Virus record (IMG/VR): IMGVR_UViG_3300030061_003638
Coordinates: 4,972-25,778 of that record
Direction: 5' to 3' (one strand)
DNA from: a virus
Length of the DNA: 20,807 nucleotides
A model generated the notes under the pieces. The model made no database searches. It had not been told where the DNA came from and worked only from the letters and a program-made list of their open reading frames with translations. Within the stretch, counting starts at the first letter, position 1. Each line of letters starts with the position of its first letter. The translations under genes and the position numbers were made by a program. Of the stretch, positions 4,527-17,847 are shown one piece after another.

Positions 4527-5219
4527 ATGGTTAAGAAAGAGAAAACACAACAACAAGTATTAACTTTTGAGGCTATTAGACCCTTTGGCCCTACTATTGT
4601 TAAAGGAAAGTTACCTAAATATCTTATTGATTTAATGGATAATAAATCAACAGAGATGTTAGAAGATGAAAAACTTGCTAAAGAATTTGATCATTCAGGT
4701 TCTCTTGCAGGTAATGTTAAACAAGAAGTTAGGTTTCCTCAGAAGTGGATGAGCACAGAAGAGTTTTTGCCAATGGTAAATTTAATGGGTGAAATGGTTA
4801 AACAATATATTTCTATTCCTCCAGCTAATGAAACTATTACACCTGAGTATGTAGGTAAAATGGTCATTGAATCTATGTGGGTCGTGAGCCAATGGGCAGG
4901 AGACTTTAATCCTTTTCATATACACGAGGGACAACTATCAGGAGTTTTTTATTTACGAGTGCCTCCTAGTCTTCCAGAAGAATATGCAAAAGAAGATCAT
5001 TACCCAACTGTAGGAGATATAGTTTGGTTTGATGGTCGTGCCTCTACTTTTAGTGGTCATAAATTTCAACACTCTCCAGAAGTAGGTGACATATTTTTAT
5101 TTCCAAATTGGTTAGCACATGGTGTCTATCCTTTTAGAACACAAAATGAAGAAAGACGATCCGTATCGTTTAATCTTCATTTAATTAAAAAAGAAGAAGA
5201 AAAACAATTATTAAAATAA
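4527..5219 (+). CDS. Fe(II)/2-oxoglutarate oxygenase, 2OG-FeII_Oxy_5-like
   Basis: 230 aa. The double-stranded beta-helix core is readable: the metal region is FNPFHIHEGQLSGVFYL with H131 and H133 (E134 follows), and the distal part is GDIFLFPNWLAHGVYPF with H198. Arg 210/211 in RRSVSFN is the expected 2-oxoglutarate carboxylate anchor. The NPxHxHxG..SGVFYL and FPxWLxH pattern matches the putative oxygenase family PF13759, common in cyanophages and other marine phages. Such enzymes couple 2OG decarboxylation to hydroxylation of a substrate; the substrate here is unknown. AAAGG at 4517-4521 sits 5 nt before the ATG. It is the first gene of the rightward cassette, directly abutting the next. 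The first ~110 residues are a variable helical domain. Confidence 0.85.
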   Translation: MVKKEKTQQQVLTFEAIRPFGPTIVKGKLPKYLIDLMDNKSTEMLEDEKLAKEFDHSGSLAGNVKQEVRFPQKWMSTEEFLPMVNLMGEMVKQYISIPPANETITPEYVGKMVIESMWVVSQWAGDFNPFHIHEGQLSGVFYLRVPPSLPEEYAKEDHYPTVGDIVWFDGRASTFSGHKFQHSPEVGDIFLFPNWLAHGVYPFRTQNEERRSVSFNLHLIKKEEEKQLLK

Positions 5220-5495
5220 ATGATTAACATAAACAAAACTCCTATGGTTCGTATAACATGGCTTGATGCCCGTGATATGGAAACTGGGTGGTTACCTGCT
5301 AAGGATATTGTTAATGCACCGTTAGCCGTGTGCCAAGAAGTAGGATGGATGGTTACTAATACAGATAAGAAAGTTGTTATTATGCGTTCATGGTGCACAG
5401 ATAAAGATGATAACCACGGTGGCGGTGCTATTGCTATACCTAAAGGATGGGTAACTAAAATAGAATATTTAACAATTAGCTATGCTACTCAGTAA
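5220..5495 (+). CDS. Small conserved phage protein, function unknown
   Basis: 91 aa, starting MININKTPMVRITWLDARDM. It reads as a compact beta-rich domain: VRITWLDARDMETGW, then PLAVCQEVGWMVTNTDKKVVIMRSW, an acidic/Gly loop (DKDDNHGGG) and IPKGWVTKIEYL. Small proteins of this W-D-A...VGW...IPKG layout recur in marine phages near structural genes; no function is known to me. The start codon follows the upstream stop with no spacer, and the end overlaps the next gene by 14 bp, so it is co-translated with the oxygenases. Two Cys (39, 59) are present but no metal site is evident. Confidence 0.8.
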   Translation: MININKTPMVRITWLDARDMETGWLPAKDIVNAPLAVCQEVGWMVTNTDKKVVIMRSWCTDKDDNHGGGAIAIPKGWVTKIEYLTISYATQ

Positions 5496-6000
5496 AAAAC
5501 AAATTAAAGATATACAACAAAATAAAGTAACTTTTATTCGAAACTTTACTACTCTTAATAAAGTATATGATTTTAATTATATTTCTGTTGTAGCTGATGA
5601 ATATGTAGGCGATGAAAATGGTATACAAATTTATTCACGAGGGGATCATTCATTTGAAAAAGTATGGGGAGTTAAACATTTACATAATGCTGATTATGAT
5701 TTGTTTTCTTATTATGATTTTTTAAAAAAAATGTTTATTTTTAATGAAGATTCTCGAAGCGGTGTAGATTTATTTTTTTCTTTTGCTACATGTGTAGGAC
5801 CTCCGCACATAGATGAAGAATGTATATTTCTTTTAGGTTTAAAAGGAAGCACTATTTATAAAGATTATTTAAATCGCAAGGATTACATTGTAGAAAAAGG
5901 TGACTTGTTATTTATTCCAGGGGGAATTAGACATAAAGCTATTGCTTGTTCTCCTCGCATTATTGCTTCAATAGGTTTTTTTGGTGACAGAAAAAAATAA
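5482..6000 (+). CDS. Compact JmjC/cupin-type 2OG oxygenase (ROX-like)
   Basis: 172 aa. The core is GPPHIDEECIFLLGLKGS, then YIVEKGDLLFIPGGIRHKAI and IIASIGFF. The candidate iron triad is H109-x-D111 and H151. K121 is positioned like the 2OG-binding lysine of JmjC enzymes. The H-x-D...G.K...KGDLLFIPGG..H order resembles the ribosomal oxygenase/JmjC_2 group (RoxA/YcfD, NO66, MINA53; PF08007), which hydroxylate ribosomal proteins. This protein is much shorter than those and lacks their dimerisation and winged-helix parts, so its substrate may differ. The ATG at 5482 lies inside the preceding gene and no strong ribosome site is visible, suggesting coupling. A metal-binding cupin that is not an oxygenase is the alternative. 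Confidence 0.7.
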   Translation: MLLSKKQIKDIQQNKVTFIRNFTTLNKVYDFNYISVVADEYVGDENGIQIYSRGDHSFEKVWGVKHLHNADYDLFSYYDFLKKMFIFNEDSRSGVDLFFSFATCVGPPHIDEECIFLLGLKGSTIYKDYLNRKDYIVEKGDLLFIPGGIRHKAIACSPRIIASIGFFGDRKK

Positions 6001-6562
6001 AAATATTTTATCAGTTGATTGTGATTTTGTTAAAGATTCTAGATCTTTAGTAAAATTAATTAAATTTGTTTTACAATATATAGATAAGATAGAAGATACC
6101 CACATTGTAATATCTCAAAAACATGTAGACATATATTATATTTTAGAACCTTTATTAAAAAATAAAAAAACTATAGATGTAGTTTCTATTGATCATCATC
6201 ATGATTTAACTTATCCAGACTTTCCTATTGAAAAAGGATTAGCTTCTAGCAATTGGCTTGGATATTATTTAATGAAACCTAATTTTATTGATAATGCATA
6301 TTGGTTATCTAATTATACATCAGATCCCAATGCAGGAGTTAAATGTGAAGATTGGATAACTATTACTAAAACATTTGAAGATATTGCTTTTGATTCATTT
6401 GATTATTTATTTATTTGTGAATCTCCTTCTTATGCTACCAATGAATTTTCTTTGTGTGCTTACAGAATATTAATAGAAATTATAACAAGATTAAAAAATA
6501 AAGATAAATTTTTTTTTATGAAACCTACTTTACTTAACCATAAATATGCCTTTATTAACTAG
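5984..6562 (+). CDS. UPF0489/arginase-fold-like protein
   Basis: About 192 aa. The start is GTG at 5984 (TTG at 5981 is also in frame); both lie inside the end of the upstream gene. The N-terminus reads NILSVDCDF, followed by IVISQKHVDIYYIL, then VVSIDHHHDLTY, and LASSNWLGYYL. The S-V-D-x-D start and the SIDHHHDL metal-like cluster resemble UPF0489 (PF12640) and, more remotely, arginase/deacetylase-type metal sites; I recognise the layout only. No characterised activity is known to me for phage members. It sits between an oxygenase and a sulfotransferase with overlaps on both sides, so it is probably part of the same tailoring pathway. No membrane segment or signal peptide. Confidence 0.55.
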   Translation: MTEKNKNILSVDCDFVKDSRSLVKLIKFVLQYIDKIEDTHIVISQKHVDIYYILEPLLKNKKTIDVVSIDHHHDLTYPDFPIEKGLASSNWLGYYLMKPNFIDNAYWLSNYTSDPNAGVKCEDWITITKTFEDIAFDSFDYLFICESPSYATNEFSLCAYRILIEIITRLKNKDKFFFMKPTLLNHKYAFIN

Positions 6563-7145
6563 TCCCAATAATAAAAAAGTTTTTTTTATTCACATACCTA
6601 GAACAGCAGGGCGTGCTTTGTCTGAATGGTTTGTGCAGAATAATTTTAATATTGAACATTATGATTGGAAACATTTAATTAATGATAATCCTGTAGGACA
6701 TCTTTGTTATCCTAATTACAATCTTCTTCCAGGAGTAAAAGATGTTTTTAAATTTGCAGTAGTGCGAGATCCTTTAGATAGATTTATTTCTATGTGTCGC
6801 ATTGTAGATTATGATTTTAGTAAAGTAAAAACTAAAGAAGATTTTAAAAATGTTATTGAATCTTTAAAAGAACAAACAAAAGGAATGAATTGGTTTACTC
6901 CTCAACATTATTTTATTGATAAAAAAACAGTATGGTGGAAACTAGAAGCTAAATTTGAAAGAGTATTTGTAGAGTGGTTAGCTCTTCCTTCATATGGAAA
7001 TGTTAAGTTAGAAGGAAAGATAGGGGATTATCCTAAAGAAGATTATGATAGTAAGCCTCTTCCTTTACTTTCTATGGAAGTAAAAAATTTAGTTAAAGAA
7101 TATTATAAAGAAGATTATGAAAGGTTTAATTATGCAATACAATAA
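6546..7145 (+). CDS. PAPS-dependent sulfotransferase family protein
   Basis: 199 aa. The 5'-phosphosulfate-binding loop is clear at residues 14-22 (FFIHIPRTAG) and the 3'-phosphate-binding segment at 69-82 (KFAVVRDPLDRFIS). These are the two hallmark motifs of Golgi-type carbohydrate sulfotransferases and their bacterial/phage relatives (Sulfotransfer_2, PF03567-like), which move sulfate from PAPS to a hydroxyl group. It is shorter than cellular enzymes (usually ~300 aa) but holds both cofactor motifs, so the core looks intact. A hydroxyl made by a neighbouring oxygenase or a sugar added by the glycosyltransferase is an attractive acceptor, but that is inference. It overlaps its upstream neighbour by 17 bp and the next gene by 14 bp. 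No transmembrane anchor: cytoplasmic. Confidence 0.85.
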   Translation: MPLLTSPNNKKVFFIHIPRTAGRALSEWFVQNNFNIEHYDWKHLINDNPVGHLCYPNYNLLPGVKDVFKFAVVRDPLDRFISMCRIVDYDFSKVKTKEDFKNVIESLKEQTKGMNWFTPQHYFIDKKTVWWKLEAKFERVFVEWLALPSYGNVKLEGKIGDYPKEDYDSKPLPLLSMEVKNLVKEYYKEDYERFNYAIQ

Positions 7146-7659
7146 AGCTACTAGATTTGTACAATATGTAGATAATTTTTTAGATGAAAAAACTTTAAAA
7201 TCTCTTCAAGATAATTTTTTACAATTAGAGTATACTCCACGGGTAAATGAGGATGGATTGTATGGAAATAGACATCGTTTCAACACACAAAAAATGAAAA
7301 AAGATCCTTTATTAGATCGTATAAAAGAATTTTTTTTTCCTTATTATGATTTAGAACCCACAGAAGTTGCAGCACACCTAAGACATAATAGCACAAAACC
7401 TATGGTACATACAGATCATAAAACTGATTGTAATTTTTTATTGTTTGTTAAAGGTGAACCTTTATTAAATAATGGTACAGGTTTTTTTACTGACACTGGT
7501 CAACTTTCTTCTCATGTAGGGTTTGTAGAAAACAGAGCTATATTTTTTAATGGCGCTAAAATAGCTCACACAGATCTTCAGTCTTTTGGTGATAGCTCCC
7601 CTCGATATACATTAAATATTTTTTATAAAAAAGCTCAACCTAAAGCTGCGGGGTTTTAA
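7132..7659 (+). CDS. 2OG-Fe(II) oxygenase, HxD type, paralogue of 16718 gene
   Basis: 175 aa from the ATG at 7132. I prefer this to the in-frame ATG at 7117 because AAAGG at 7120-7124 is 7 nt upstream and the protein then begins MQYNKATRFVQYVDNFLDE. The iron site is MVHTDHKT (H93, D95) and IAHTDLQ (H146); the 2OG anchor is R158 in SPRYTLNIFY. NNGTGFFT and VGFVENRAIFFN are shared almost word for word with the protein at 16718-17251, as are the opening (Y)VDNF and EYTPRVNE/EFTPPPNE, so the two are paralogues. Family-level function is hydroxylation of an unknown substrate. The stop overlaps the next ATG by one base (TAATG). Confidence 0.85.
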   Translation: MQYNKATRFVQYVDNFLDEKTLKSLQDNFLQLEYTPRVNEDGLYGNRHRFNTQKMKKDPLLDRIKEFFFPYYDLEPTEVAAHLRHNSTKPMVHTDHKTDCNFLLFVKGEPLLNNGTGFFTDTGQLSSHVGFVENRAIFFNGAKIAHTDLQSFGDSSPRYTLNIFYKKAQPKAAGF

Positions 7660-8186
7660 TGAATAATTTATTAGACTATATAAAAGTTTACAGAAAAATT
7701 TTAGACAAAGAAACCTGTAATAAAATTATACAAGAAAAAGATTTAAAATTTTTTCCAGCTACTACTCAAGGAAGAGTAGTTTCTCATCGACAATGTTTAA
7801 TTAAAAAACTTAACCCTGAATTTGAATCAATAATTAAATTTAAAGTTATTGAAATAACTAATAGATACATGAAAGATTATCCTCATTTAATTACTGGGTT
7901 TGAAAATAAGGATACGGGTTATGATCATTTATTATATATGTCTTCTCATGAAGGAGAATATAAAGAACATGTTGATAATACTTTAAGTCATAAAAGAATA
8001 TTAAGTTGTTCTATTCTTTTAAATGATACTTATGAGGGAGGAGAGTTTTCTTTTTTTGATAACGAATATACTATTCCTTCTCAACAAGGAATGGCTATTG
8101 TTTTTCCTAGTAACTTTATGTTTCCCCATGCTGTAAAAAAAATTATTTCTGGTGATAGGCACGCCATTATAACTTGGATGTATTAA
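7659..8186 (+). CDS. 2OG-Fe(II) oxygenase, prolyl-4-hydroxylase-like
   Basis: 175 aa. The core reads GEYKEHVDNTLSHKRILSCS, then LNDTYEGGEFSFFD, then GMAIVFPSNFMFPHAVKKI and GDRHAIITWM. Iron ligands H104-x-D106 and H157 and the 2OG anchor R167 are all in place. The L.D.YEGGEF.F turn and FPS...PHAV segment are the signature of the P4H/PiuC group (2OG-FeII_Oxy_3, PF13640). These enzymes hydroxylate prolyl or other residues and some small molecules; the substrate here is unknown. The length matches a minimal catalytic domain, with a ~90-residue helical N-terminus. TAATG overlaps at both ends tie it tightly to the flanking oxygenase and glycosyltransferase genes. Confidence 0.88.
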   Translation: MNNLLDYIKVYRKILDKETCNKIIQEKDLKFFPATTQGRVVSHRQCLIKKLNPEFESIIKFKVIEITNRYMKDYPHLITGFENKDTGYDHLLYMSSHEGEYKEHVDNTLSHKRILSCSILLNDTYEGGEFSFFDNEYTIPSQQGMAIVFPSNFMFPHAVKKIISGDRHAIITWMY

Positions 8187-8971
8187 TGAATAATATTTTT
8201 GTAGGAACACCGTGTTATGGGGGAATGATTTCTGTAAATTATTTTGAAAGTTGTTTACGTTTAATGTCAGAATGTGCAGTTAATAATGTAGGATTACAGT
8301 TTGGTACAATTGGAAACGAGTCATTAGTAACAAGAGCTCGGAATACTTTAGTGCAATTATTTATGGATGATAAACAATACACTCATTTATTATTTATAGA
8401 TGCTGATATAGGTTTTAATGAAAAATCTGTAATGCGTATGTTAGATTTAGATCAAGAAGTAGTTACGGGAGTTTATCCAAGAAAGACTATTGACTGGACA
8501 AAAGTTATAAGAAAAGTCAAAGAAAACCCTAATATAAAAGAAAATGAATTGTTAGCTTCTTCTTTACAATATAATCTTAATGTAAAAAATCCTGACCATG
8601 TAGAAGTTAAAAAGGGGTTTATAGAAGTATTAGATGGGGCTACAGGATTTATGTTGATTAAAAGATCTGTTTTTGAAAAAATGGCAAAGGCTTATCCTAG
8701 ACTTAAATTTAAATCAGATCAGTCTTTAAATGAACCTCATGATAAAACATTTGATTATCACGATAATTCTAAATGGAATTATACATTTTTTGACACAATG
8801 ATAGAACCTAAAACTAAAAGATACTTGTCAGAAGACTATGCTTTCTGTAGACTGTGGCAAAAAATTGGTGGCACCGTATATGCTGACATTGTTAGTGGTC
8901 TGACACACTATGGGACTTATGCCTTTAAAGGCAATGTAGGTACTCAATTCTTGCCACCAGAGAAGAAATAA
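8186..8971 (+). CDS. GT-A glycosyltransferase-like protein (GT2-like)
   Basis: 261 aa from the ATG at 8186, which overlaps the upstream stop as TAATG; the in-frame ATG at 8174 would extend into the oxygenase gene for no gain. It begins IFVGTPCYGGMISVNYFES, then VTRARNTLVQLFM, then YTHLLFIDADIGF with D72-x-D74 as the DxD metal/nucleotide-sugar motif. LDGATGFMLIKRSVFE follows near residue 150, and the C-terminal LSEDYAFCRLW near 210 supplies the acidic ED pair expected for a catalytic base. This is the usual arrangement of GT-A enzymes found in phages. Donor and acceptor are unknown. It closes the first enzyme block and is followed after 16 bp by a structural gene, which suits modification of a virion protein or host envelope. 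Confidence 0.82.
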   Translation: MNNIFVGTPCYGGMISVNYFESCLRLMSECAVNNVGLQFGTIGNESLVTRARNTLVQLFMDDKQYTHLLFIDADIGFNEKSVMRMLDLDQEVVTGVYPRKTIDWTKVIRKVKENPNIKENELLASSLQYNLNVKNPDHVEVKKGFIEVLDGATGFMLIKRSVFEKMAKAYPRLKFKSDQSLNEPHDKTFDYHDNSKWNYTFFDTMIEPKTKRYLSEDYAFCRLWQKIGGTVYADIVSGLTHYGTYAFKGNVGTQFLPPEKK

Positions 8972-8987
8972 TTTAGTATGTGGCCTT

Positions 8988-10868
8988 ATGCAATTAACTG
9001 ATTTAAAATTTCAACCAGGTGTAGATAAACAAGATTCACCTTATGCTGCGGGAGATGATAGAAAATATGTTGATTCACAATTAGTACGTTTTCATTATGG
9101 GAAACCAGAACGTTGGAAAGGGTGGACTTATCTTCCTAATCCTAACGAAACTGTTATTGGTGTAGTTCGTGATACACATTCATGGGTTACATTAGATGGT
9201 AATAGATACCTTGCTATAGGTACAGATAGAAAATTATATATATTAGAGGGTAGTGCTCTTTATGATATTACCCCTATTCGTGAAACAGCTAGTCTATCAA
9301 ATCCTTTTACAACGGTAAGTGGTAGTCCAATTGTAACCGTAGCCGATGCTGCTCACGGAGCAGTCTTAGGTGACTTTGTTACTTTTGATGATGGTAGTGC
9401 TAATAATGTATTAGATGGAATAGAATTTAATAACGAATTTGAAATTACAGAAATAGTAGATACTGATAATTATAAGATTACTTATTCTTCAAATGCTTCA
9501 GGGGCAACAGCCGGGGGTGGTGGATCAGTTACAGCAACCTACCAAATTAACACGGGACCAGCTACATCAACATATGGATATGGTTGGGGTGTTTTAACTT
9601 GGGGACTAAGTACATGGGGAACAGCTCGTTCTTCTTCTGATGTAACTATCACTGCTCGTAATTGGTCTTTAGATAATTTTGGAGAAGATCTTGTTGCTAC
9701 TGTTTTAGATGGTGGTACTTATCAATGGGATAAAAGTAATGGAGTAAGTACAAGGGCCGTGAGCCTAGGTGTGACAGCACCTGTTGCTACTCGTTTTTCT
9801 TTAGTCTCTTCTGACACTCGACATTTATTTTTATTTGGAACATGCACTACGGTTACAGATGCAGCTACACAAGATGATTTATTTTTTAGATTTGCTGATC
9901 GTGAAAGTTTAACAGTGTTTGCACCTACAGCAGAAAATGAAGCAGGTTCGCTTCGTATTGCTGATGGTTCACGTATTATAGGCGCTGTTAGATCAACTGG
10001 TCAGATATTAGTTTGGACTGATCAATCGCTACATGGTATTCAATTTGTTGGGACACCATTTACATTTGGTCAACGACAACTTGGGGCTAACTGTGGATTG
10101 ATAGCACAGCATGCAGCTATTGATGTAAATGGAATGGCTTTTTGGATGGGTGATGATGCTTTTTATATGTATGATGGGGTTGTTAAAAAAATGCCATGTT
10201 CTGTTCAAGATTATGTTTATGACGATTTAAGTTATACTAATAAAAATGATATAGCTTGTGGGGTTAATCCTGAATTTAATGAAATACTTTGGTATTATCC
10301 TTCATCTAGTGCTACACAAATAGATAGAGTAGTTGTTTACAATTATTTAGAAGGTACTTGGTATACTTCAACATTAGGACGAACTAGTTATCTTGCTAAT
10401 TATACTTTTGAAAATCCTATTTCTTCTGAATACAATGCTTCTTTAGTGGCAAATGCTACAACAAGTACAGGGGTAAGTAATACACCGTTTGGTGTATCAG
10501 CAGGAGCTTCCTATTTATATAATCAAGAAACAGGTAATAATCAAGCTGATGGTTCGGCTATTAGTGCTTCTCTTACTACAGGATCAATTGAAATTGGTGA
10601 TGGTGATCAATTTATGTCAATTAGTAAATTTGTTCCAGACTTTACTTCTTTAGCTAATAATTTAACTGTTACCTTAACTTTAGAAGATTATCCTCAATCT
10701 ACAACTAGTCAAACAACAACAGGAACTGTAAGTAGCACAACAGACAAAATTAATATAAGAGGACGAGGAAGATCAGTAAAATTAAATTTTACAACTAATA
10801 CAGTAGATGATACTAACTGGAGACTTGGATCAATGAAACTACAACTTAGACCAGATGGAAGAAGATAA
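8988..10868 (+). CDS. Tail/DNA-stabilisation structural protein, P22 gp10-like
   Basis: 626 aa. The N-terminus (FQPGVDKQDSPYAAGD, then YVDSQLVRFHYGKPERWKGW) and the following RYLAIGTDRKLYIL...LYDITPIR are a recurrent pattern of a podoviral tail component related to packaged-DNA stabilisation protein gp10 of P22. Trp/Gly repeats near residues 195-213 (GWGVLTWGLSTWGTAR) belong to the same family. The rest is beta-rich with repeated blades, consistent with a beta-propeller or hub. It would sit in the neck/tail of the particle. It is larger than P22 gp10 (about 470 aa). No strong ribosome site is seen before the ATG at 8988. The stop overlaps the next ATG as TAATG. The family assignment is from memory of the pattern. 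Confidence 0.7.
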   Translation: MQLTDLKFQPGVDKQDSPYAAGDDRKYVDSQLVRFHYGKPERWKGWTYLPNPNETVIGVVRDTHSWVTLDGNRYLAIGTDRKLYILEGSALYDITPIRETASLSNPFTTVSGSPIVTVADAAHGAVLGDFVTFDDGSANNVLDGIEFNNEFEITEIVDTDNYKITYSSNASGATAGGGGSVTATYQINTGPATSTYGYGWGVLTWGLSTWGTARSSSDVTITARNWSLDNFGEDLVATVLDGGTYQWDKSNGVSTRAVSLGVTAPVATRFSLVSSDTRHLFLFGTCTTVTDAATQDDLFFRFADRESLTVFAPTAENEAGSLRIADGSRIIGAVRSTGQILVWTDQSLHGIQFVGTPFTFGQRQLGANCGLIAQHAAIDVNGMAFWMGDDAFYMYDGVVKKMPCSVQDYVYDDLSYTNKNDIACGVNPEFNEILWYYPSSSATQIDRVVVYNYLEGTWYTSTLGRTSYLANYTFENPISSEYNASLVANATTSTGVSNTPFGVSAGASYLYNQETGNNQADGSAISASLTTGSIEIGDGDQFMSISKFVPDFTSLANNLTVTLTLEDYPQSTTSQTTTGTVSSTTDKINIRGRGRSVKLNFTTNTVDDTNWRLGSMKLQLRPDGRR

Positions 10869-11035
10869 TGGCTAAAATAACAATTACACGATTACCAAAT
10901 GCTACACCAGATTATCAACCAAGTCAATTTGATCAAATGGTACGATTACTTGAACAACTTATTTTAAATTTAAACACATCATATTCTCAAGACATAGAAA
11001 ATAAATCTAGCGGAAGGAGTTGGTACTTTGGGTGA
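10868..11035 (+). CDS. Small 55-aa phage protein
   Basis: Short frame starting with the ATG that overlaps the stop of the 626-aa gene (TAATG) and ending TGA at 11033-11035, 8 bp into the next gene. The product starts MAKITITRLPNATPDYQPSQ, continues FDQMVRLLEQLILNLNTSYS and ends SSGRSWYFG. The middle is a predicted helix. It is too small to type, but conserved spacing and overlaps at both ends, and in-frame codon use like its neighbours, support a real gene. It is probably a minor virion or assembly factor transcribed with the tail gene. Confidence 0.7.
   Translation: MAKITITRLPNATPDYQPSQFDQMVRLLEQLILNLNTSYSQDIENKSSGRSWYFG
11014..11019 (+). promoter_or_regulatory. Ribosome binding site deciding a TTG start
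   Basis: AAGGAG ends 8 nt before the TTG at 11028. No ATG or GTG in that frame is available upstream before the preceding overlap, so this site selects TTG as the start of the 125-aa gene. Confidence 0.65.
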
Positions 11036-11405
11036 TACATTTAAAAATGCAGGAAAAGATCTTACAACAACAGATTTAACAACACTTTATACTGTTCCTA
11101 CAGCATCACCAGGTGTTACAGGAACATCACCTGTTTTTCCAACAACTGCTGTTATAAAATCTATTTTAGTTTGTAATGATCATGGAACTGCTACTACTCT
11201 TTTGGATGTAGTTTTTACTGATACTAGTGCTTCTGCTACAATTGCTTTATTTGAACAAAAAAGTGTAGCGGCAAAAACTACTGATGAATTATTAGATCAA
11301 CCTTTAGTATTAGAAGAAGGGGACATATTAAAAGTACAAGCTAATGCAGCTAATCAAGTACATGTAACTGCTAGTATATTAGAAATAACAAAAGGAGATT
11401 TGTAA
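11028..11405 (+). CDS. Small beta-rich virion-type protein
   Basis: 125 aa, TTG start supported by AAGGAG 8 nt upstream. It begins MGDTFKNAGKDLTTTDLTTL. It is Thr/Ala/Val rich with alternating hydrophobic strands (AVIKSILVCNDHG, LLDVVFTDTSAS, ATIALFEQKSVAA, LVLEEGDILKVQA, QVHVTASILEI), fitting a small jelly-roll or Ig-like sandwich. Similar small beta proteins in phages decorate heads or tails; this role is inferred from composition and from its place directly after two tail-region genes. The stop TAA at 11403-11405 abuts the beginning of the next, unusual reading frame. Confidence 0.75.
   Translation: MGDTFKNAGKDLTTTDLTTLYTVPTASPGVTGTSPVFPTTAVIKSILVCNDHGTATTLLDVVFTDTSASATIALFEQKSVAAKTTDELLDQPLVLEEGDILKVQANAANQVHVTASILEITKGDL
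11391..11397 (+). promoter_or_regulatory. Shine-Dalgarno before a non-canonical start
   Basis: AAAGGAG lies in the last codons of the upstream gene and ends 7 nt before ATC at 11405. The position is right for initiating the oxygenase frame there, although no ATG/GTG/TTG exists at that spot. Confidence 0.55.
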
Positions 11406-11995
11406 TCGATCTCCACTCTTTATTTATTACTCCTATTTTTTCATTAAATTTAGCAGGGTATGAAGATTTAATAAAAGATATTAAAGATCTTCAAGACAAA
11501 GAACCCCAGACTATAGAAGGAAAAAGCACTAAAGGAGGATGGCATAGCCATGATTTTCTTCACGAAAATGGAAAGTTTGGTACATTAAAATCTGAGATTG
11601 TTAATTTATCTCAAGAAGCTATGACACATTTAGATGTAATTGAAGAAATGATTCCTGAAGTAACGGGAATGTGGGCCGTGGTTAATGGACCGGGAAGCAG
11701 TAATCGTTTACATAATCACCCTTTTAATTACCTCTCAGGCGTTTTTTATTTACAAGTGCCTAAAGATAGTGGTTCTCTTATATTTCATGATCCTAGGCCT
11801 CAATCTGAAGTATTATCACCTCCTAAAAAACTAAAGGAAAGTATATATACAGCACACCGAGTAACATGGACACCTAAACAAAATGATATATTATTTTTTC
11901 CTTCTTGGCTTCAACATGAGGTAGAGGAAAATAATTCACAAGAAGAAAGAATTGTGATAAGTTTTAACATTGAATTAAAAAGGAGAAAACCATGA
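11405..11995 (+). CDS. 2OG-Fe(II) oxygenase, Oxy_5-like, non-canonical start
   Basis: The first ATG in frame is at 11621, but conserved sequence extends 72 codons further up: IDLHSLFITPIFSLNL and GGWHSHDF are typical N-terminal parts of the PF13759-type family. That frame reaches 11405, where an ATC follows AAAGGAG by 7 nt; the only stop above is TAG at 11372, and no ATG/GTG/TTG lies between. From 11405 the protein is 196 aa: metal region NRLHNHPFNYLSGVFYLQVP (H103, H105), distal FFPSWLQHEVEE (H171), 2OG anchor R182 in ERIVISFN. From 11621 it would be 124 aa and lose conserved strands. Either a rare ATC/ATT start is used, or a small deletion removed a TAATG-style ATG. Only the latter case would make it defective. 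It overlaps the next gene by 4 bp (ATGA). Confidence 0.75.
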   Translation: MDLHSLFITPIFSLNLAGYEDLIKDIKDLQDKEPQTIEGKSTKGGWHSHDFLHENGKFGTLKSEIVNLSQEAMTHLDVIEEMIPEVTGMWAVVNGPGSSNRLHNHPFNYLSGVFYLQVPKDSGSLIFHDPRPQSEVLSPPKKLKESIYTAHRVTWTPKQNDILFFPSWLQHEVEENNSQEERIVISFNIELKRRKP

Positions 11996-12246
11996 CTAAA
12001 ATTATAGAAGAAGCAAAAGTTTTAGGGGAAATTGATGCAGGTGATGGTCGTATGGTTCCTCATATTAGATGTAAATCTGAGACAACGATTATTAATACTC
12101 AAACAAGTCAAGAATATGATTCAGAAAATCATGCTAAATCTGATGTAGATGACCCTAATACAAGTACTAAAGAAGAACATATTCAAAGAAATGTAAAAAT
12201 ATTTGCTCCATCTTTAGCAGATATGATAGGTGCTAACGAAGACTAA
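11992..12246 (+). CDS. Small conserved phage protein, function unknown
   Basis: 84 aa, acidic. It reads EEAKVLGEIDAGDGRMVPHI, then TIINTQTSQEYDSENHAKSD, DVDDPNTSTKEEHIQRNVKI and a hydrophobic end (FAPSLADMIG). The NTQTGQ-like turn and VDDPNT...IxRxVxV pattern recur in small proteins of marine phages; function unknown to me. It has a strong ribosome site (AAAAGGAG 6-13 nt before the ATG). It overlaps the upstream stop (ATGA) and converges with the minus-strand gene so that the two stop codons share two bases. Confidence 0.8.
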   Translation: MTKIIEEAKVLGEIDAGDGRMVPHIRCKSETTIINTQTSQEYDSENHAKSDVDDPNTSTKEEHIQRNVKIFAPSLADMIGANED

Positions 12247-12458
12247 GCACTACAAGCTTCACATTCAACATCAGATTCATTCCCATTTAATATTACTTTT
12301 TCACTCGAAGTATCATGGCATCCACACCCTTTAAGGTGTTCAGATAGTGTTTTTTGTAGTCTTAAATTATCTCGCTCTAAGGCTAATAAACGTTCGTGGC
12401 AGCGACTCACCTTGTCAGCAAGGACAGCTATAGCTTTCAATACTTCTTGATTTTCCAT
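12243..12458 (-). CDS. 71-aa coiled-coil, Cys-rich small protein
   Basis: 71 aa. Residues about 5-43 are a leucine-patterned helix (ALERDNLRLQKTLSEHL), probably a coiled coil. The tail holds GCGCHD and, 20 residues on, CEACSA: a CxCH...CxxC arrangement that could bind zinc. A clear AGGAG lies 5-6 nt before the ATG at 12458. No signal peptide or membrane segment. It is the only minus-strand gene inside the 14-kb plus-strand region and splits it into two transcription units; it may be a regulator or an inserted accessory gene, but nothing in the sequence settles that. Confidence 0.75.
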   Translation of the reverse strand: MENQEVLKAIAVLADKVSRCHERLLALERDNLRLQKTLSEHLKGCGCHDTSSEKVILNGNESDVECEACSA

Positions 12459-12508
12459 AATTTCTCCTGTGATTTAAATTTTTGGGTGAGATCTAATTTA
12501 ACCATATT

Positions 12509-12538
12509 TTGATTGAAAGCAACAGAACTTTTTAAAAT
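12509..12538 (+). promoter_or_regulatory. Candidate promoter of the second oxygenase operon
   Basis: The 131-bp divergent gap 12459-12589 must hold the promoter(s). TTGATT at 12509-12514 and TAAAAT at 12533-12538 are 18 bp apart (4/6 and 5/6 to sigma70 boxes), with about 50 nt to the ATG at 12590. A perfect TTGACA at 12546-12551 also occurs, but its only -10-like partner (TATGAA, 12564-12569, preceded by TGG) is 12 bp away. The first pair is preferred; both are weak in such A/T-rich DNA. Confidence 0.3.
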
Positions 12539-12589
12539 TGTTTTATTGACAAAGAATATATGGTATGAAAGGGGCAGAAATTAGAGAGA

Positions 12590-13168
12590 ATGAATATAGA
12601 TACTTTAGATAACCCAACTTATCATTTTTTTATAAAGAATTACGAGGAAAAGAATATTCCCTGTTTAATAAAAAATTATTCTTTAGACTGGCCTATTTTT
12701 AAAATGCCTGATTACTACATAGCTAAAAAATTAAATATAGGGAATTTTTACCAGTATTTAAAAAGAGATTGTAATTATCTTTTACCTGACAAAGAAGATG
12801 TTTTTTATATAAGAGATTATTTAATTGCTGATAGTGTTCTGCATAATTCTTATTCTATTCCCTCTTACTTTGCTGATGCTCCTTTTCAGCCTAATGAATG
12901 GAAATGGTTGTATTGGGGTCCTCCTTCTTCTTCCTCTAAAATACATACGGATACTACGGAGTCATCTGCATGGAATGTTGTTATATCAGGCAAAAAAATG
13001 TGGTGGTTTTGGTTTAATAATAAAACTTATTATTGCACTCAAAAAGAAAAAGAAATTATTTTTACTCCAGGCAACATAGAACATGCAGCTTGTAACATAA
13101 CTTCGTGTCTTTCTATTACTCATAATTATTTAAGAGATCATGAGAAAATTAAATGGGCTACACAATGA
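12590..13168 (+). CDS. JmjC/Cupin_8-type 2OG oxygenase
   Basis: 192 aa. WKWLYWGPPSSSSKIHTDTT, then SAWNVVISGKKMWWFW, then IIFTPGNIEHAACNI and LSITHNYL reproduce the FIH/JMJD-type Cupin_8 domain (PF13621). Iron ligands are H119-x-D121 and H165; K136 in SGKKMW matches the 2OG-binding lysine; N129 in WN is also typical. Known members hydroxylate Asn, Lys, Asp or Arg side chains of proteins, or tRNA; the substrate here is unknown. Only ~16 residues separate KKMWWFW from the last strand pair, shorter than in cellular members (full proteins ~250-350 aa), so it is a compact version. It is the first gene of the second operon; ATGA joins it to the next gene. A weak purine-rich ribosome site precedes the ATG. 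Confidence 0.82.
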   Translation: MNIDTLDNPTYHFFIKNYEEKNIPCLIKNYSLDWPIFKMPDYYIAKKLNIGNFYQYLKRDCNYLLPDKEDVFYIRDYLIADSVLHNSYSIPSYFADAPFQPNEWKWLYWGPPSSSSKIHTDTTESSAWNVVISGKKMWWFWFNNKTYYCTQKEKEIIFTPGNIEHAACNITSCLSITHNYLRDHEKIKWATQ

Positions 13169-13746
13169 CTTTTAAAATACATAATAATGTTTTAACAAAA
13201 GAAGAGCATGAAAAACTTGTAAGGTATATTACAAGTAGTGGGTTTCAATGGAGTTACAGTAATGCAACTTATGATGCAAGTAATGAAACCGATACACCAC
13301 AAATGGTCCGTTCATTAATGGAACGTGGCCACATAGAGGATTGGCCAGACGAACCTAGTATTTGGACTTCACAACATTTTTATCACAAATATTTTTGGCA
13401 AATACCTCATCTGCATGATATTTTAAAAAACTGTGGTTCAACAAGAGATTATTGGAGAGTTAAATGTAATTTACTTCAACCGTATTACAACGCACCAGAA
13501 CACCATCCTTATCATGTTGATGTTGATAACGATGGTTGGCAGCCACCCGGTGGCTTCACTAGTTATATTTACTATATAAATAATAGTAACGGTTGTACAT
13601 GGTTTGATAGTGGAGGAAAAATAGAACCGATGGCTAACACTTGTATTGAGTTTGATAGTTATGTTAAACATGCAAGTTCTAATCCAACTAACGGACCTCG
13701 TTACGTAATAAATTTTGTGACAGCAAATGAACAATTAAAAATATAA
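13165..13746 (+). CDS. 2OG-Fe(II) oxygenase, HVD type with Gly/Tyr-rich core
   Basis: 193 aa from the ATG at 13165, which overlaps the upstream TGA as ATGA; the in-frame ATG at 13153 would add only four residues. N-terminal MTFKIHNNVLTKEEHEKLV is the helical segment common to these enzymes. The core reads HHPYHVDVDNDGW (H117, D119), GGFTSYIYYINNSNGCTWF, then EFDSYVKHASS (H169) and NGPRYVINFV (R179 as 2OG anchor). The triad and its spacing fit the PF13640/P4H-like fold, but the central strands differ from the other oxygenases here, so it is a separate lineage. Substrate unknown. The next ATG comes 1 bp after its stop. Confidence 0.8.
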   Translation: MTFKIHNNVLTKEEHEKLVRYITSSGFQWSYSNATYDASNETDTPQMVRSLMERGHIEDWPDEPSIWTSQHFYHKYFWQIPHLHDILKNCGSTRDYWRVKCNLLQPYYNAPEHHPYHVDVDNDGWQPPGGFTSYIYYINNSNGCTWFDSGGKIEPMANTCIEFDSYVKHASSNPTNGPRYVINFVTANEQLKI

Positions 13747-13747
13747 A

Positions 13748-14314
13748 ATGACAGAGCTTTATACTTATAATAATACTTCAATCTCTCCATTAATTCATTT
13801 TATTAACTTACATTTTAAACATAAATTAATTGGTGTTGAGATTGGTGTAGGTCAAGGTTTATCAATGTTTGAAGTTTTAGAAAAATGTGAATTAGTAAAA
13901 ATGTATTATGGTATTGATTCTTATCTTCCATTTGAAGATCACATTACTTACGGAAAAGAAAAAATATATTATGATCAAAAAAGCCAAGACCTTAGTAAAA
14001 CAATGTTATATCATTATTTAAAACACAGTAAGGGAAAAGAAAAAATAAAGATAATTGAAAAAGAATCTCGTATTGCTGTGGAAGAATTTCCTAATGAATA
14101 CTTTGATTTTATTTTTTTAGATGCATTTCCTACCTATGAAAATGCTGTACAAGATTTTACTTTATGGTTTCCTAAATTAAAAGTTAAAGGATTATTTTGT
14201 GGTCACGACTTTAACAATAAAATTATTCAAGAAGCTTTGATTGATTTTTTAAAATTAATTAAATTAAATAAAAAATTAAGTATAGCTAATGACACATGGG
14301 CTTTTATTAAATGA
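13748..14314 (+). CDS. Class I SAM-dependent methyltransferase (Methyltransf_24-like)
   Basis: 188 aa. Motif I is GVEIGVGQGLS (29-39) for S-adenosylmethionine binding. The acidic end of strand 2 is YYGIDSY (D57), and the post-motif strand is FDFIFLDAFPTYENAVQDF (D125), followed by KVKGLFCGHDF. This order, with LDA.P.YE and GG.CGHDF, matches PF13578-type methyltransferases, which methylate small molecules or sugar precursors in many clusters and are frequent in phage and glycan loci. No target-recognition or DNA-binding domain is visible, so DNA methylation is not favoured. It overlaps the next gene by 4 bp (ATGA) and is embedded in a run of oxygenases, so methylation and oxidation may act on a common substrate. 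Confidence 0.82.
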   Translation: MTELYTYNNTSISPLIHFINLHFKHKLIGVEIGVGQGLSMFEVLEKCELVKMYYGIDSYLPFEDHITYGKEKIYYDQKSQDLSKTMLYHYLKHSKGKEKIKIIEKESRIAVEEFPNEYFDFIFLDAFPTYENAVQDFTLWFPKLKVKGLFCGHDFNNKIIQEALIDFLKLIKLNKKLSIANDTWAFIK

Positions 14315-14979
14315 AAATTAAATATTTTTATTTACACGATAGTATTCCAGATTCTTTACGTTTATCTTTTAATAAAGAAATACCTAACCAAGATAAAGGG
14401 TATCATCGTTGTTATGCACACAAGTGGGCAAACTTAAATAGATTTACTGTAAGCTGTCCCTATGATTTAAATTTTACTATTAACCCTATTGAGGGACAAG
14501 AAGAATATAGTATTACTTTTCATGATGTATACACTTCAAATTTATTTAAAGATGGGTTAATACAAGTAACATTTAGCGATGCAGTAATTCATCACAAACC
14601 TGTTTTTCAAATTCCTTTGAATGTAGTTTTTTATACTAAAGAAACTTGTTTTTTAGAAACAGGATCTCCTAATAATTTTCAACATAATTTAAAATTTATT
14701 AATGGTAAGTTTGACATATCATCTTGGGTTCGTCCTCTTAATATAGCATTTGAAATACAAAGTTATCATCAAAAGGTACATATAAAAAGAAATGAAATTA
14801 TTGGTGAATTAATTTTTCATACATCTAAAATTAATGAAAATATTATTTTAGAAGAAAACAAAAATCCTTCTTCTCAGCTATTAAATTTAAGTCAAGGAAA
14901 TTCTAAAGTATCAGGTTATATTAAAAATACTAAAACTTTAATTAATAAAGGAAAAAAATTATTACAAAAAATTATATGA
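14311..14979 (+). CDS. Divergent DUF6065-like protein
   Basis: 222 aa, beta-rich for its first ~175 residues and Lys/Asn-rich, helical at the end. No signal peptide or catalytic motif I can name. By eye it follows the order of the protein at 17840-18529: a Cys-Pro segment (SCPYDLNFTI near 48-57 vs VCIPFLDSL), a TCFLETGSPNN stretch (112-122 vs SCLFTHPMNR), NGKFDISSWVRPLNIAFEI (131-149 vs EGIVDTDTYLNTIHFPFIL) and VHIKRNEIIGELIFHT (156-171 vs FLFKKGDPMVQVIPFK). I infer distant paralogy; similarity is low and needs a profile comparison. ATGA overlaps tie it to the methyltransferase before and the oxygenase after it. Confidence 0.6.
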   Translation: MKIKYFYLHDSIPDSLRLSFNKEIPNQDKGYHRCYAHKWANLNRFTVSCPYDLNFTINPIEGQEEYSITFHDVYTSNLFKDGLIQVTFSDAVIHHKPVFQIPLNVVFYTKETCFLETGSPNNFQHNLKFINGKFDISSWVRPLNIAFEIQSYHQKVHIKRNEIIGELIFHTSKINENIILEENKNPSSQLLNLSQGNSKVSGYIKNTKTLINKGKKLLQKII

Positions 14980-15581
14980 ATATAAATATTGAAACTCATT
15001 CGTTGTTTACTGAAAAGGTATGGACTTTTAAAATACCTAATCACGATACATGGAAAAACCATATAAATAATATTGTTAAAGTAGAATCAAATAAATCTAT
15101 ACACCAACATTCTACTTCTCCTGAAGAAGAGTGTAATGTTAAAGCTTCTCGCACAGGATGGTGGTCACATTTTCAATATTCTATTTTACGAAACCTAACT
15201 GACTTTATTGGAAATAACTGTTTAAATGCGATTGCTTCAACAGAAAAATTTGACATGCCTAAATTTACTGTAACTAATTGTTGGATTAATTGGTACGATA
15301 AAACTCAATATGCTGAAGTGCACAATCATCATTTTCATCCGCTTTCTGTTGTTTACTTTGTAGATCTTCCAGATGAAAATTCTAATTTTTTATTTCATAA
15401 TTATTATGGAAGTGCTTTAAAAAAAGACGGTGACAAATTATTAAATGTAGAAGAAGGAACGATTATAATTTTTAATGGATCTCTTCCTCATTCAGTTTCT
15501 CCTAATCTTTCTGATAAATTAAGAGTTACTTTTGCTGCTAATTATGAACCTGTTTTTGAAGAAGAAAGAAAAAAATATTAA
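14976..15581 (+). CDS. 2OG-Fe(II) oxygenase, Oxy_5-like, HNH motif
   Basis: 201 aa. N-terminal ETHSLFTEKVWTFKIPNHD corresponds to the family's usual LFxTPV(x)xxxxP opening, and TGWWSHFQYSI (60-70) to its conserved GWxS segment. The metal region is YAEVHNHHFHPLSVVYFVDLP (H116, H118); EEGTIIIFNGSLPHSVSPN gives H172; R183 in DKLRVTFAANY is the 2OG anchor. It belongs with the proteins at 4527, 11405 and 17248, all of which show H-x-H where most 2OG enzymes have H-x-D/E. The distal strand carries FNGSLPH instead of FPSWLxH. Overlaps: ATGA at its start, TAATG at its end. Confidence 0.82.
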   Translation: MNINIETHSLFTEKVWTFKIPNHDTWKNHINNIVKVESNKSIHQHSTSPEEECNVKASRTGWWSHFQYSILRNLTDFIGNNCLNAIASTEKFDMPKFTVTNCWINWYDKTQYAEVHNHHFHPLSVVYFVDLPDENSNFLFHNYYGSALKKDGDKLLNVEEGTIIIFNGSLPHSVSPNLSDKLRVTFAANYEPVFEEERKKY

Positions 15582-16099
15582 TGATACATAAATCTAAATT
15601 AATTATAAATAACAAAAAAGACTTTGTTAAAGAAATTCATACGGCAGCAGCTATTTATCGTGAAGCTTTTCCAGAAAAAGATTTAACCTGGGGATATAAT
15701 CTTTATAATACATTTGGTATTACTTCCCCTTCTAAATTATTTTATGAACTTTTTAAAGAACTACGAACAGTAATTTTAAATTACACTGATTCTAAATACA
15801 TATGGATGCAATCATGGATTAATTTTCATCAACAAGATGAAGTGTTACATTGGCATAGCCATGAGTGGGATTTTCATGGGTACATAACTATTGAACCTCA
15901 TCAGACAAGAACAGTATTTGAAAACTTTGAAATTGTTAATGAGGTAGGAAATATTTATATAGGTCCTGGTGATCTTTATCACAAGGTTATTGTAGATAAG
16001 AAATTTAATACTCCTCGTATAACTCTTGGTTTTGATTGTCACACAAAACCTTTAACACAACCTAACAATACAATTGGTTTAATACCTATTATACGATAA
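15581..16099 (+). CDS. Putative 2OG-Fe(II) oxygenase, HWHSH motif
   Basis: 172 aa. WMQSWINFHQQDEVLHWHSH (H90, H92, H94), then FHGYITIEPH, EVGNIYIGPGDLYHKV (H134) and NTPRITLGFDC (R146) outline a double-stranded beta-helix with His metal ligands and an Arg 2OG anchor. The first motif is H-x-H-x-H-E, close to but not the same as the HNH/HTH motif of the Oxy_5-like group, and the N-terminal 70 residues are unrelated to it. Which His residues bind iron cannot be decided by eye. A cupin-like metal enzyme that does not use 2OG is the main alternative. TAATG overlaps at both ends. Confidence 0.72.
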   Translation: MIHKSKLIINNKKDFVKEIHTAAAIYREAFPEKDLTWGYNLYNTFGITSPSKLFYELFKELRTVILNYTDSKYIWMQSWINFHQQDEVLHWHSHEWDFHGYITIEPHQTRTVFENFEIVNEVGNIYIGPGDLYHKVIVDKKFNTPRITLGFDCHTKPLTQPNNTIGLIPIIR

Positions 16100-16725
16100 T
16101 GGAATATTATTCTTTTTCAAAAAACATTATAGCCGCTAATAATTTTTTACCCCCAAATATAATAGACAAGCTGTATATAGATTTTTTAAATTTAAGAAAT
16201 TATTTTGATATATCTGAATGGCAAAATAAAGAAGGAAATAAAAAAAAAGAATTTTATTCTCCTCATTGTGGGGGCTTTGATTTTTGGATCACAGATAAAA
16301 ATGTAAAAGATTTTGAAAACACTACTATTTTACATTTAAAATCATGGTTTTTGCATCAAGGATTATTAGCCTATATTCAAGATAATTTTTCTAACTCTGT
16401 ATTTGATTTATTAAATAGAAAATTAAAGTTTTCAATTCATGTTGTTTCCTATAATAAAGAAGGATATTATAATTGGCATCAAGATATTAATCCAAAGAAT
16501 ATATTTACGATGAATTTAATTTTACAAAAACCCAGTAATTTAATAGGTGGAGAATTTTTATTTAAAGATAATAATAAAATAATTAAAACTAATAACACTC
16601 ATAATTTTTTTTCTTGTTTTCCTTCTTTTATATGGCATGCGGTTAAACCTTTGCAAGCAGATAAAGAAGTATCTTTTTTAGAACAACGATTTAGTATTCA
16701 ATTTTGGTGGAGATTAGATGAATAG
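16099..16725 (+). CDS. 2OG-Fe(II) oxygenase, P4H-like
   Basis: 208 aa. N-terminal helical part, then KFSIHVVSYNKEGYYNWHQD (H127, D129), TMNLILQKPSNLIGGEFLF, FFSCFPSFIWHAVKPL (H180) and EQRFSIQFWW (R197). The full HxD...H...R set plus the L....L.GGEF.F turn matches the PF13640/PiuC-type oxygenases; the same turn appears in the 7659-8186 protein (YEGGEFSFF), placing both in one broad subgroup, although the N-termini do not resemble each other. A ~30-residue insert lies between the GGEF strand and the distal His. Substrate unknown. The start overlaps the upstream stop (TAATG) and the stop lies 8 bp inside the next gene. Confidence 0.86.
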   Translation: MEYYSFSKNIIAANNFLPPNIIDKLYIDFLNLRNYFDISEWQNKEGNKKKEFYSPHCGGFDFWITDKNVKDFENTTILHLKSWFLHQGLLAYIQDNFSNSVFDLLNRKLKFSIHVVSYNKEGYYNWHQDINPKNIFTMNLILQKPSNLIGGEFLFKDNNKIIKTNNTHNFFSCFPSFIWHAVKPLQADKEVSFLEQRFSIQFWWRLDE

Positions 16726-17251
16726 TATTTTTGTACAAGATAATTTTTTTGAAGATGATATTTTTCAAAAAATAAAATTAGAAATACCTACAGTAGAATT
16801 TACTCCTCCTCCTAATGAAACTAGAGTTTATCAATCTTCTTATTGGTTTGATCATAAATTACCAGTAATGTGTGAAGTTCAAAAATTAATATATAAAAAT
16901 ATAAAACTTTATTTTAATATGGAAGTAGATGTAAATGAAGTTACAGACGTAGATTGTATGTATACTATGTCTAATGCTAAAGATCATCCACGCCCACATA
17001 CTGACGGTTCAGCAACTCATCAATGTCTTATCTATATAAAAGGAGATTCACACTTGGCTAATGGCACAGGTTTTTATACTCGTGATCCAGAAGATATATT
17101 AAAATTTCATTTAAACTTAAATGTAGGATTTAAAGAAAACAGAGCTGTATTTTTTTCTTCAGATAATTGGCACTCACCTATGCAATGGTCAGGTGAAAGT
17201 TCATGGAGATATAGTATTGCTAATTTTATGACAATGAAAGGAAAAAAATGA
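16718..17251 (+). CDS. 2OG-Fe(II) oxygenase, paralogue of 7132 gene
   Basis: 177 aa. HPRPHTDGSATHQCLIYIKG holds H94 and D96; NWHSPMQW holds H152; SWRYSIANF holds R164. The opening FVQDNFFEDD, EFTPPPNE, the NGTGFYT segment and NVGFKENRAVFFSS are matched by VDNFLDEK, EYTPRVNE, NGTGFFT and HVGFVENRAIFFN of the protein at 7132-7659. A gap-free match of the distinctive GTGF[FY]T and VGF.ENRA[IV]FF blocks is strong evidence of common origin, with enough divergence to suggest different substrates. It has an 8-bp overlap with the gene before and an ATGA overlap with the gene after. Confidence 0.86.
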   Translation: MNSIFVQDNFFEDDIFQKIKLEIPTVEFTPPPNETRVYQSSYWFDHKLPVMCEVQKLIYKNIKLYFNMEVDVNEVTDVDCMYTMSNAKDHPRPHTDGSATHQCLIYIKGDSHLANGTGFYTRDPEDILKFHLNLNVGFKENRAVFFSSDNWHSPMQWSGESSWRYSIANFMTMKGKK

Positions 17252-17847
17252 AAAAGAAAATTATAGTAGAAGGACGTTTCATTAGTAAATTTACTGTTCC
17301 TAAAAAATATATTAAAGATTTAAATAATCATTATGAAAAAGCAAAAACTCATTTATCAAGTTATGGTCATAGATTAGCAGGAAGACTAGATTCAGAATTA
17401 AATATTATGGCATTAATTGAAAAAACACAGGCTTTTAAATATTTTGTAAAATGTATGAATGATCATCTTAAAACAAGTGAGGATTTTAATGTATGTAAAC
17501 CGGGTCCACATCATTTAGATATTAATGGTTGTTGGATTAATGATATGAAAGAAGGAGAATATAATCCTCCTCATACACATCATGACGGAACAGGATGGTC
17601 TACTGTTTTATTTTTAAAAGTTCCTGAGTTTATAGATGATACAAAAGATCCTCATAAATTTAAAGATGGTCAATTGTGTTTTATAATGAATCAAAATATA
17701 TGTCATTATGTTACTCCTAAAGTAGGAGATTTTTATATATTTAGAGCAGATCATCAACATTGTGTAATGCCTTTTAAAACAAAAAAATCTGGGGCTATAA
17801 GACGTTCTATGTCTTTTAATTTTATTGAAGTGAAAAAAGATGTTTGA
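17248..17847 (+). CDS. 2OG-Fe(II) oxygenase, Oxy_5-like, HTHHD motif
   Basis: 199 aa. INGCWINDMKEGEYNPPHTH (H109, H111, then H112 and D113), STVLFLKVPEFIDDT, GQLCFIM, TPKVGDFYIFRADHQHCVMP (H171) and RRSMSFNFIEV (R185/186). The N.W.N....GEYNPPHTH and GDFYIF...H.V.PF...RRSMSFN layout is the textbook pattern of phage PF13759-type proteins and closely parallels the protein at 4527-5219 (GDIFLFPNWLAHGVYPF, RRSVSFN). The N-terminus is short and Lys-rich. It overlaps the upstream gene as ATGA and the downstream gene by 8 bp. Substrate unknown. Confidence 0.86.
   Translation: MKKKIIVEGRFISKFTVPKKYIKDLNNHYEKAKTHLSSYGHRLAGRLDSELNIMALIEKTQAFKYFVKCMNDHLKTSEDFNVCKPGPHHLDINGCWINDMKEGEYNPPHTHHDGTGWSTVLFLKVPEFIDDTKDPHKFKDGQLCFIMNQNICHYVTPKVGDFYIFRADHQHCVMPFKTKKSGAIRRSMSFNFIEVKKDV

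Follow-up and report, generated by a model that had tools for sequence, protein, structure and literature searches.

A conserved AUC/AUU codon as the probable weak start of a phage oxygenase gene overlapping a virion gene

The window analysed here is a 20,807-nucleotide stretch of an IMG/VR virus record whose full length is 25,778 bases. A DNA-level search for relatives of the region among annotated phages returned none. The 626-aa virion protein encoded in the window shows 38–41% identity to Pelagibacter phages HTVC027P and HTVC023P, which makes SAR11 or a similar bacterium the likely host. Four consecutive plus-strand genes are of concern. Gene A, a 55-aa ORF with a TAATG start (10868–11035), lies upstream of gene B (11028–11405), which starts with TTG and encodes a 125-aa virion-type protein; it is followed by gene C (11405–11995), a 2OG-Fe(II) oxygenase of 196 codons from ATC to the stop, and then by an 84-aa gene (11992–12246) with an ATG and its own Shine–Dalgarno sequence, AAAGGAG. 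More broadly, positions 4527–17847 of the window hold many different 2OG-Fe(II) oxygenase-like genes packed densely among virion genes, with methyltransferase- and glycosyltransferase-like genes interspersed, and HTVC023P-type pelagiphages have been described as carrying eight distinct 2OG oxygenases (PMC9599517).

Gene B has a distant relative in Roseobacter phage CRP-901 that is annotated as a 'putative immunoglobulin domain protein', and its own start is also of some note. The TTG (11028–11030) overlaps the TGA of gene A, so that a second conserved non-ATG start lies next door to that of gene C, and TTG is found in 90/90 family members with a KGxL C-terminus. In other phages, ATG is the predominant start among more distant relatives of gene B, and the genes downstream of them have ordinary ATG or GTG starts. 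None of the cultured phages in the searched collection has the gene B–gene C arrangement.

With respect to the junction between genes B and C, the gene C frame is open from 11375, immediately after a TAG (11372–11374), and, as the initial annotation had stated, contains no ATG, GTG or TTG before the ATG at 11621–11623. That ATG is codon 73 of gene C and the choice of a standard gene caller; we reject it as the true start. The TAA stop of gene B (11403–11405) contributes its last A as the first base of the proposed start codon, ATC (11405–11407), to give TAATC, and the final codons of gene B contain AAAGGAG (11391–11397), which lies 7 nt ahead of this ATC. Both elements are thus present as first described, as are several TAATG junctions at neighbouring genes (ATG at 7659, 8186, 10868, 15581 and 16099). 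Three explanations had been offered for the missing ATG, namely initiation at ATC/ATT, a −1 frameshift, and an assembly error or natural deletion; the evidence below favours the first, makes the second unlikely and leads us to reject the third.

The product of gene C is predicted to be a full-length 2OG-Fe(II) oxygenase. It matches PF13759 with an E value of 4.5e-27 (94.8 bits, against a curated cut-off of 27) and phrog_81 with an E value of 2.6e-39. The fold of an AlphaFold model (pLDDT 82) is similar throughout to those of solved 2OG oxygenases, and the best PDB matches include the prolyl hydroxylases PHD2 and P4H, with E values of about 1e-6 to 1e-12; residues 1–7 are poorly predicted. Residues H103, H105 and H171 are invariant in 26 sequences, and no invariant acidic residue was identified in these at the usual HxD place.

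Comparison with homologous loci, which had been proposed as a check, gave a uniform answer. A first scan with peptide patterns from gene C residues other than the start, avoiding the N-terminus, recovered 28 loci, and the junction reads TAATC in 28/28. The DNA pattern TAATN, in which the third base of the start is left open, yielded 58 gene C loci, all with ATC, together with two unrelated ATG genes. Profile scans extended this marine phage family to a clade 55–58% identical to the window (clade 2; gene B ending in KGAL, junction TAATC GAA) and to one 50–55% identical (clade 3; gene B ending in KGQL, junction TGATT or TGATC). After removal of duplicates, 125 distinct overlapping junctions remain across the three clades, and every one has ATC (69) or ATT (56), with no ATA, ATG, GTG or TTG, counts that are not independent events because the loci are related by descent. 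By codon and stop, the pairs are ATC/TAA (61), ATT/TGA (56) and ATC/TGA (8); TAA is used in clades 1 and 2, which hold ATC strictly, and TGA in clade 3, which prefers ATT. A tree computed with the start codon excluded shows only about seven changes among the ATC, ATT and ATG states.

Within clade 1, ATC is the start in 42/42 distinct genes. It is the rarest Ile codon of this clade (ATT 296, ATA 251 and ATC 26 among the 573 other Ile codons of the same genes), yet it is fixed at the start of gene C, and the adjoining Asp codon varies (GAC in 24, GAT in 18). Variation 5′ of the ATC tracks the third positions of gene B, and from codon 2 onward it tracks those of gene C. The coding constraint that had been noted as far up as 11405 is present from codon 1, in all three clades. 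These data confirm that the ATC junction is real and far beyond chance, and they suggest that the conserved ATC/ATT is a weak start signal retained in evolution and not a sequencing error. The absence of ATA, another possible weak start, from the 125 junctions counts against a weak-start reading. As a separate observation, codons 5–7 of gene C (11417–11425) are invariantly TCT TTA TTT in clade 1 (42 distinct genes), despite the six codons available for each of Ser and Leu. We considered these codons as a downstream start signal and set the idea aside, since they vary in clade 3 and a similar sequence is kept in forms that start with ATG; the constraint thus does not appear tied to the start.

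The same comparison disposes of two alternatives. The idea that the ATG is missing through misassembly, or was lost recently to leave a pseudogene, has nothing in its favour beyond the single window and is refuted by the relatives, in which the same codon and intact frames recur in many independent metagenome contigs from three clades; we give it essentially no credence. Translation from the internal ATG at 11621, with the 72 N-terminal codons as a relic, has the merit of using the first standard start in the window's gene C frame, and we regard it as very improbable. Codons 2–72 show the third-position-dominated variation of the rest of the gene, the N-terminal motif xLHSLFITP is kept across clades and in ATG-started relatives, and a start at 11621 would delete ordered elements of the model (strand 12–15, helix 21–32, strand 42–47 and helix 56–75).

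The Shine–Dalgarno sequence inside gene B is as consistent a feature as the codon itself. AAAGG[AG] or AAGGG is present at the end of gene B in 125/125 overlapping junctions. The Gly codon of gene B that bears it has a purine third base in 105/105, whereas at the other Gly codons of gene B a purine occupies this position in only 106/289 (Fisher 3e-36, with the kinship of the loci ignored).

Copies of gene C with a standard start do exist, and their arrangement is informative. A scan with the start pattern DTR, which covers ATG, ATA, GTG and TTG among others, found only ATG among true gene C homologues, and these begin at the residue equivalent to 11405 (MxLHSLFITP). Relatives beginning at the equivalent of 11621 had been named as the finding that would speak against the upstream start; the ATG-started relatives instead place it at 11405. 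One kind of ATG copy has another gene between B and C and forms three separate nested branches inside clade 3, some of the tree forks behind these branches being weakly supported. In the other kind, gene C follows gene B after a spacer with its own Shine–Dalgarno sequence, and on the tree they cluster next to clade 3 together with further ATG forms. The internal sequence of gene B in the spacer type is AAAGGT, with Gly encoded by GGT, in 8/8, whereas the weak-start junctions all have GGA or GGG.

A programmed −1 frameshift near the end of gene B, producing a small amount of a gene B–oxygenase fusion in which the Ile is an ordinary internal residue, is a more substantial competitor. Phages use −1 frameshifting for capsid, tail and Ig-domain proteins, and gene B encodes a small virion/Ig-like protein; moreover, relative to gene B, gene C is in the −1 frame, which in all loci checked stays open for at least 10 codons before the ATC, and weak Z_ZZN motifs occur somewhere in each locus. 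The slippery motifs are, however, chance occurrences whose position is not kept (56 junctions have A_AAA at codon −4 and 65 have T_TTT at codon −9), and by the motif rules of PMC4066793 shift-prone motifs are absent from 11/125 junctions. The last codons of gene B vary synonymously, the Leu before the stop being CTC, TTA, TTG, CTG, CTT or CTA. Across 40 loci, no RNA structure was detected at or 3′ of the junction (mean folding z −0.3 to +0.3), although stimulatory structures do not always accompany bacterial −1 frameshift sites. An internal Ile in clade 1 would be expected often to be ATA or ATT, and ATC is observed always; in uncoupled copies of gene C this very residue is encoded by ATG; and an ATG is likewise missing from genes that follow gene B in another frame. 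Frameshifting offers no good explanation for the Shine–Dalgarno sequence, the overlap, the conserved codon or the reappearance of ATG, and we consider it unlikely. A formal resemblance to the prfB (RF2) recoding site, with which the junction shares the order of Shine–Dalgarno sequence, one codon, Leu codon and stop, does not extend to the direction of the shift, which is +1 in prfB; gene C is in the −1 frame.

In terms of mechanism, we therefore return to initiation at the near-cognate codon itself. Gene C would be read as a full 196-residue oxygenase from AUC here, and from AUU or AUC in relatives, with the Shine–Dalgarno sequence at the 3′ end of gene B positioning the ribosome at this codon. 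The start overlaps the upstream stop in each junction type (TAATC, TGATT and TGATC), and this overlap suggests that the ribosome probably arrives by terminating there and then re-initiating, so that gene C would be coupled to gene B. Initiator tRNA (fMet) would pair with AUC with a mismatch at the third position, and because of this mismatch the yield of gene C per message is expected to fall well below that from AUG. The predicted Met-started N-terminal peptide is MDLHSLFITPIFSLNL. Neither the window nor 13 related loci yielded a tRNA gene, and hence there was no sign of a phage initiator tRNA with an altered anticodon. SD-guided AUC/AUU initiation by just-terminated ribosomes would account for the Shine–Dalgarno sequence, the overlap, the fixed codon and the return of ATG on uncoupling. 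Selection would retain the weak start since it sets the oxygenase dosage relative to the virion gene. We consider it probable, with good though not complete confidence, that gene C is made from a near-cognate AUC/AUU start kept by selection as such a dosage setting.

A variant of this proposal accepts that ATC/ATT is used and differs over why it is weak. The selected trait could be the freedom of the 3′ end of gene B from a strong initiation site that would obstruct ribosomes as they complete the virion protein, with oxygenase dosage secondary. A strong Shine–Dalgarno sequence inside gene B is always accompanied by a weak start, and ATG occurs with a Shine–Dalgarno sequence outside gene B and a ruined inner one; in addition, the five TAATG overlaps of the window have, by eye, no comparably strong Shine–Dalgarno sequence. 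Against this, overlaps that combine a Shine–Dalgarno sequence with ATG are common in bacteria. We regard this variant as a minority reading that still deserves weight. Low oxygenase dosage is not universally required, as gene C uses ATG with a good Shine–Dalgarno sequence in other branches.

The preferred reading, a retained weak start, may apply to more than gene C. In three loci (L329, L333 and L336), gene B is followed by a different 2OG-like ORF of ~200 aa in the +1 frame, which has no standard start for 82 nt; its best start is a CTG one base after the gene B stop, and this CTG is likely to be the start used. In two other loci, in which a counterpart of gene A precedes gene B, the following gene starts with GTG (L215) or TTG (L219). 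Given the weak starts in these five loci, the habit appears to belong to the position after the Shine–Dalgarno sequence of gene B and not to one gene or frame. A bolder extension, which we put forward only tentatively and rate as rather doubtful, is that the AUC/AUU gate would be a position-dependent setting on whatever gene comes after the virion gene, dropped for ATG once uncoupled.

Known systems provide partial parallels. The lysis gene of MS2 starts with UUG, a standard codon in contrast to that of gene C, and MS2 is an RNA phage, unlike the phage that carries gene C. Nonetheless, the coat–lysis pair of MS2, discussed in PMC2268962, is alike in that a downstream gene overlaps or lies near the stop of a virion gene and is expressed to a limited extent by just-terminated ribosomes; in E. 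coli, re-initiation has been established for starts that overlap a stop or lie near one (PMC2268962). With respect to the codon, infC, which encodes IF3, starts with ATT in E. coli and ATC in Streptomyces (PMC5472188) and resembles gene C in having an evolutionarily kept ATC/ATT start with a Shine–Dalgarno sequence, but infC is a self-regulating cellular gene and gene C a phage oxygenase. The sigR gene of Streptomyces has a GTC start that is repressed by IF3; there, a non-canonical start within an operon sets the ratio of two products, and canonical starts are harmful (PMC5472188). It differs in being a cellular regulator with GTC, whereas the gene C start overlaps the stop of the previous gene. 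In S. aureus, cvfC1 (AUU) and ccpN (AUA) are reported to have conserved non-canonical starts with strong Shine–Dalgarno sequences and ~10% of AUG output (PMC13009471). These resemble gene C in pairing a conserved weak start with a strong Shine–Dalgarno sequence; they are cellular genes and apparently not at a stop–start overlap, and AUC is not reported in that study. Weak starts in infC, sigR, cvfC1 and ccpN give reduced output, and sensitivity to IF3 where tested (PMC5472188, PMC13009471). The gate at gene C may possibly be IF3-sensitive as well, or responsive to ribosome-pool conditions in the infected cell.

Autoregulation of IF3 in the host was considered as a model and rejected, as the device was not seen in the likely host. 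Among seven sampled Pelagibacter genomes with a readable infC start, all have GTG and not ATT or ATC, so that SAR11 seems to lack the classic start for IF3 autoregulation. In Pelagibacter loci L476, L477, L480, L481, L483, L484 and L485, this GTG directly follows an upstream TAA.

Few non-canonical start codons of bacteria have been studied well, and conserved examples are already known; what is new at gene C is a phage case tied to a stop–start overlap, the literature searched containing no family of phage genes in which an AUC/AUU start is conserved. Gene callers limited to ATG, GTG and TTG must trim ~72 residues off gene C in every genome that carries it. Furthermore, the use of AUC/AUU when overlapping versus AUG when uncoupled forms a natural contrast that makes the reason for the weak start directly testable.

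When further ORFs without a start were surveyed, most of the hits were antisense noise. Two single-locus cases lie just after the 84-aa gene and have no standard start: a methyltransferase-like ORF in L109 (3813–4619, plus strand) and a 2OG-like ORF in L187 (945–1457, plus strand). Each might start with AUA or AUU, or might have lost its start at a recombination junction.
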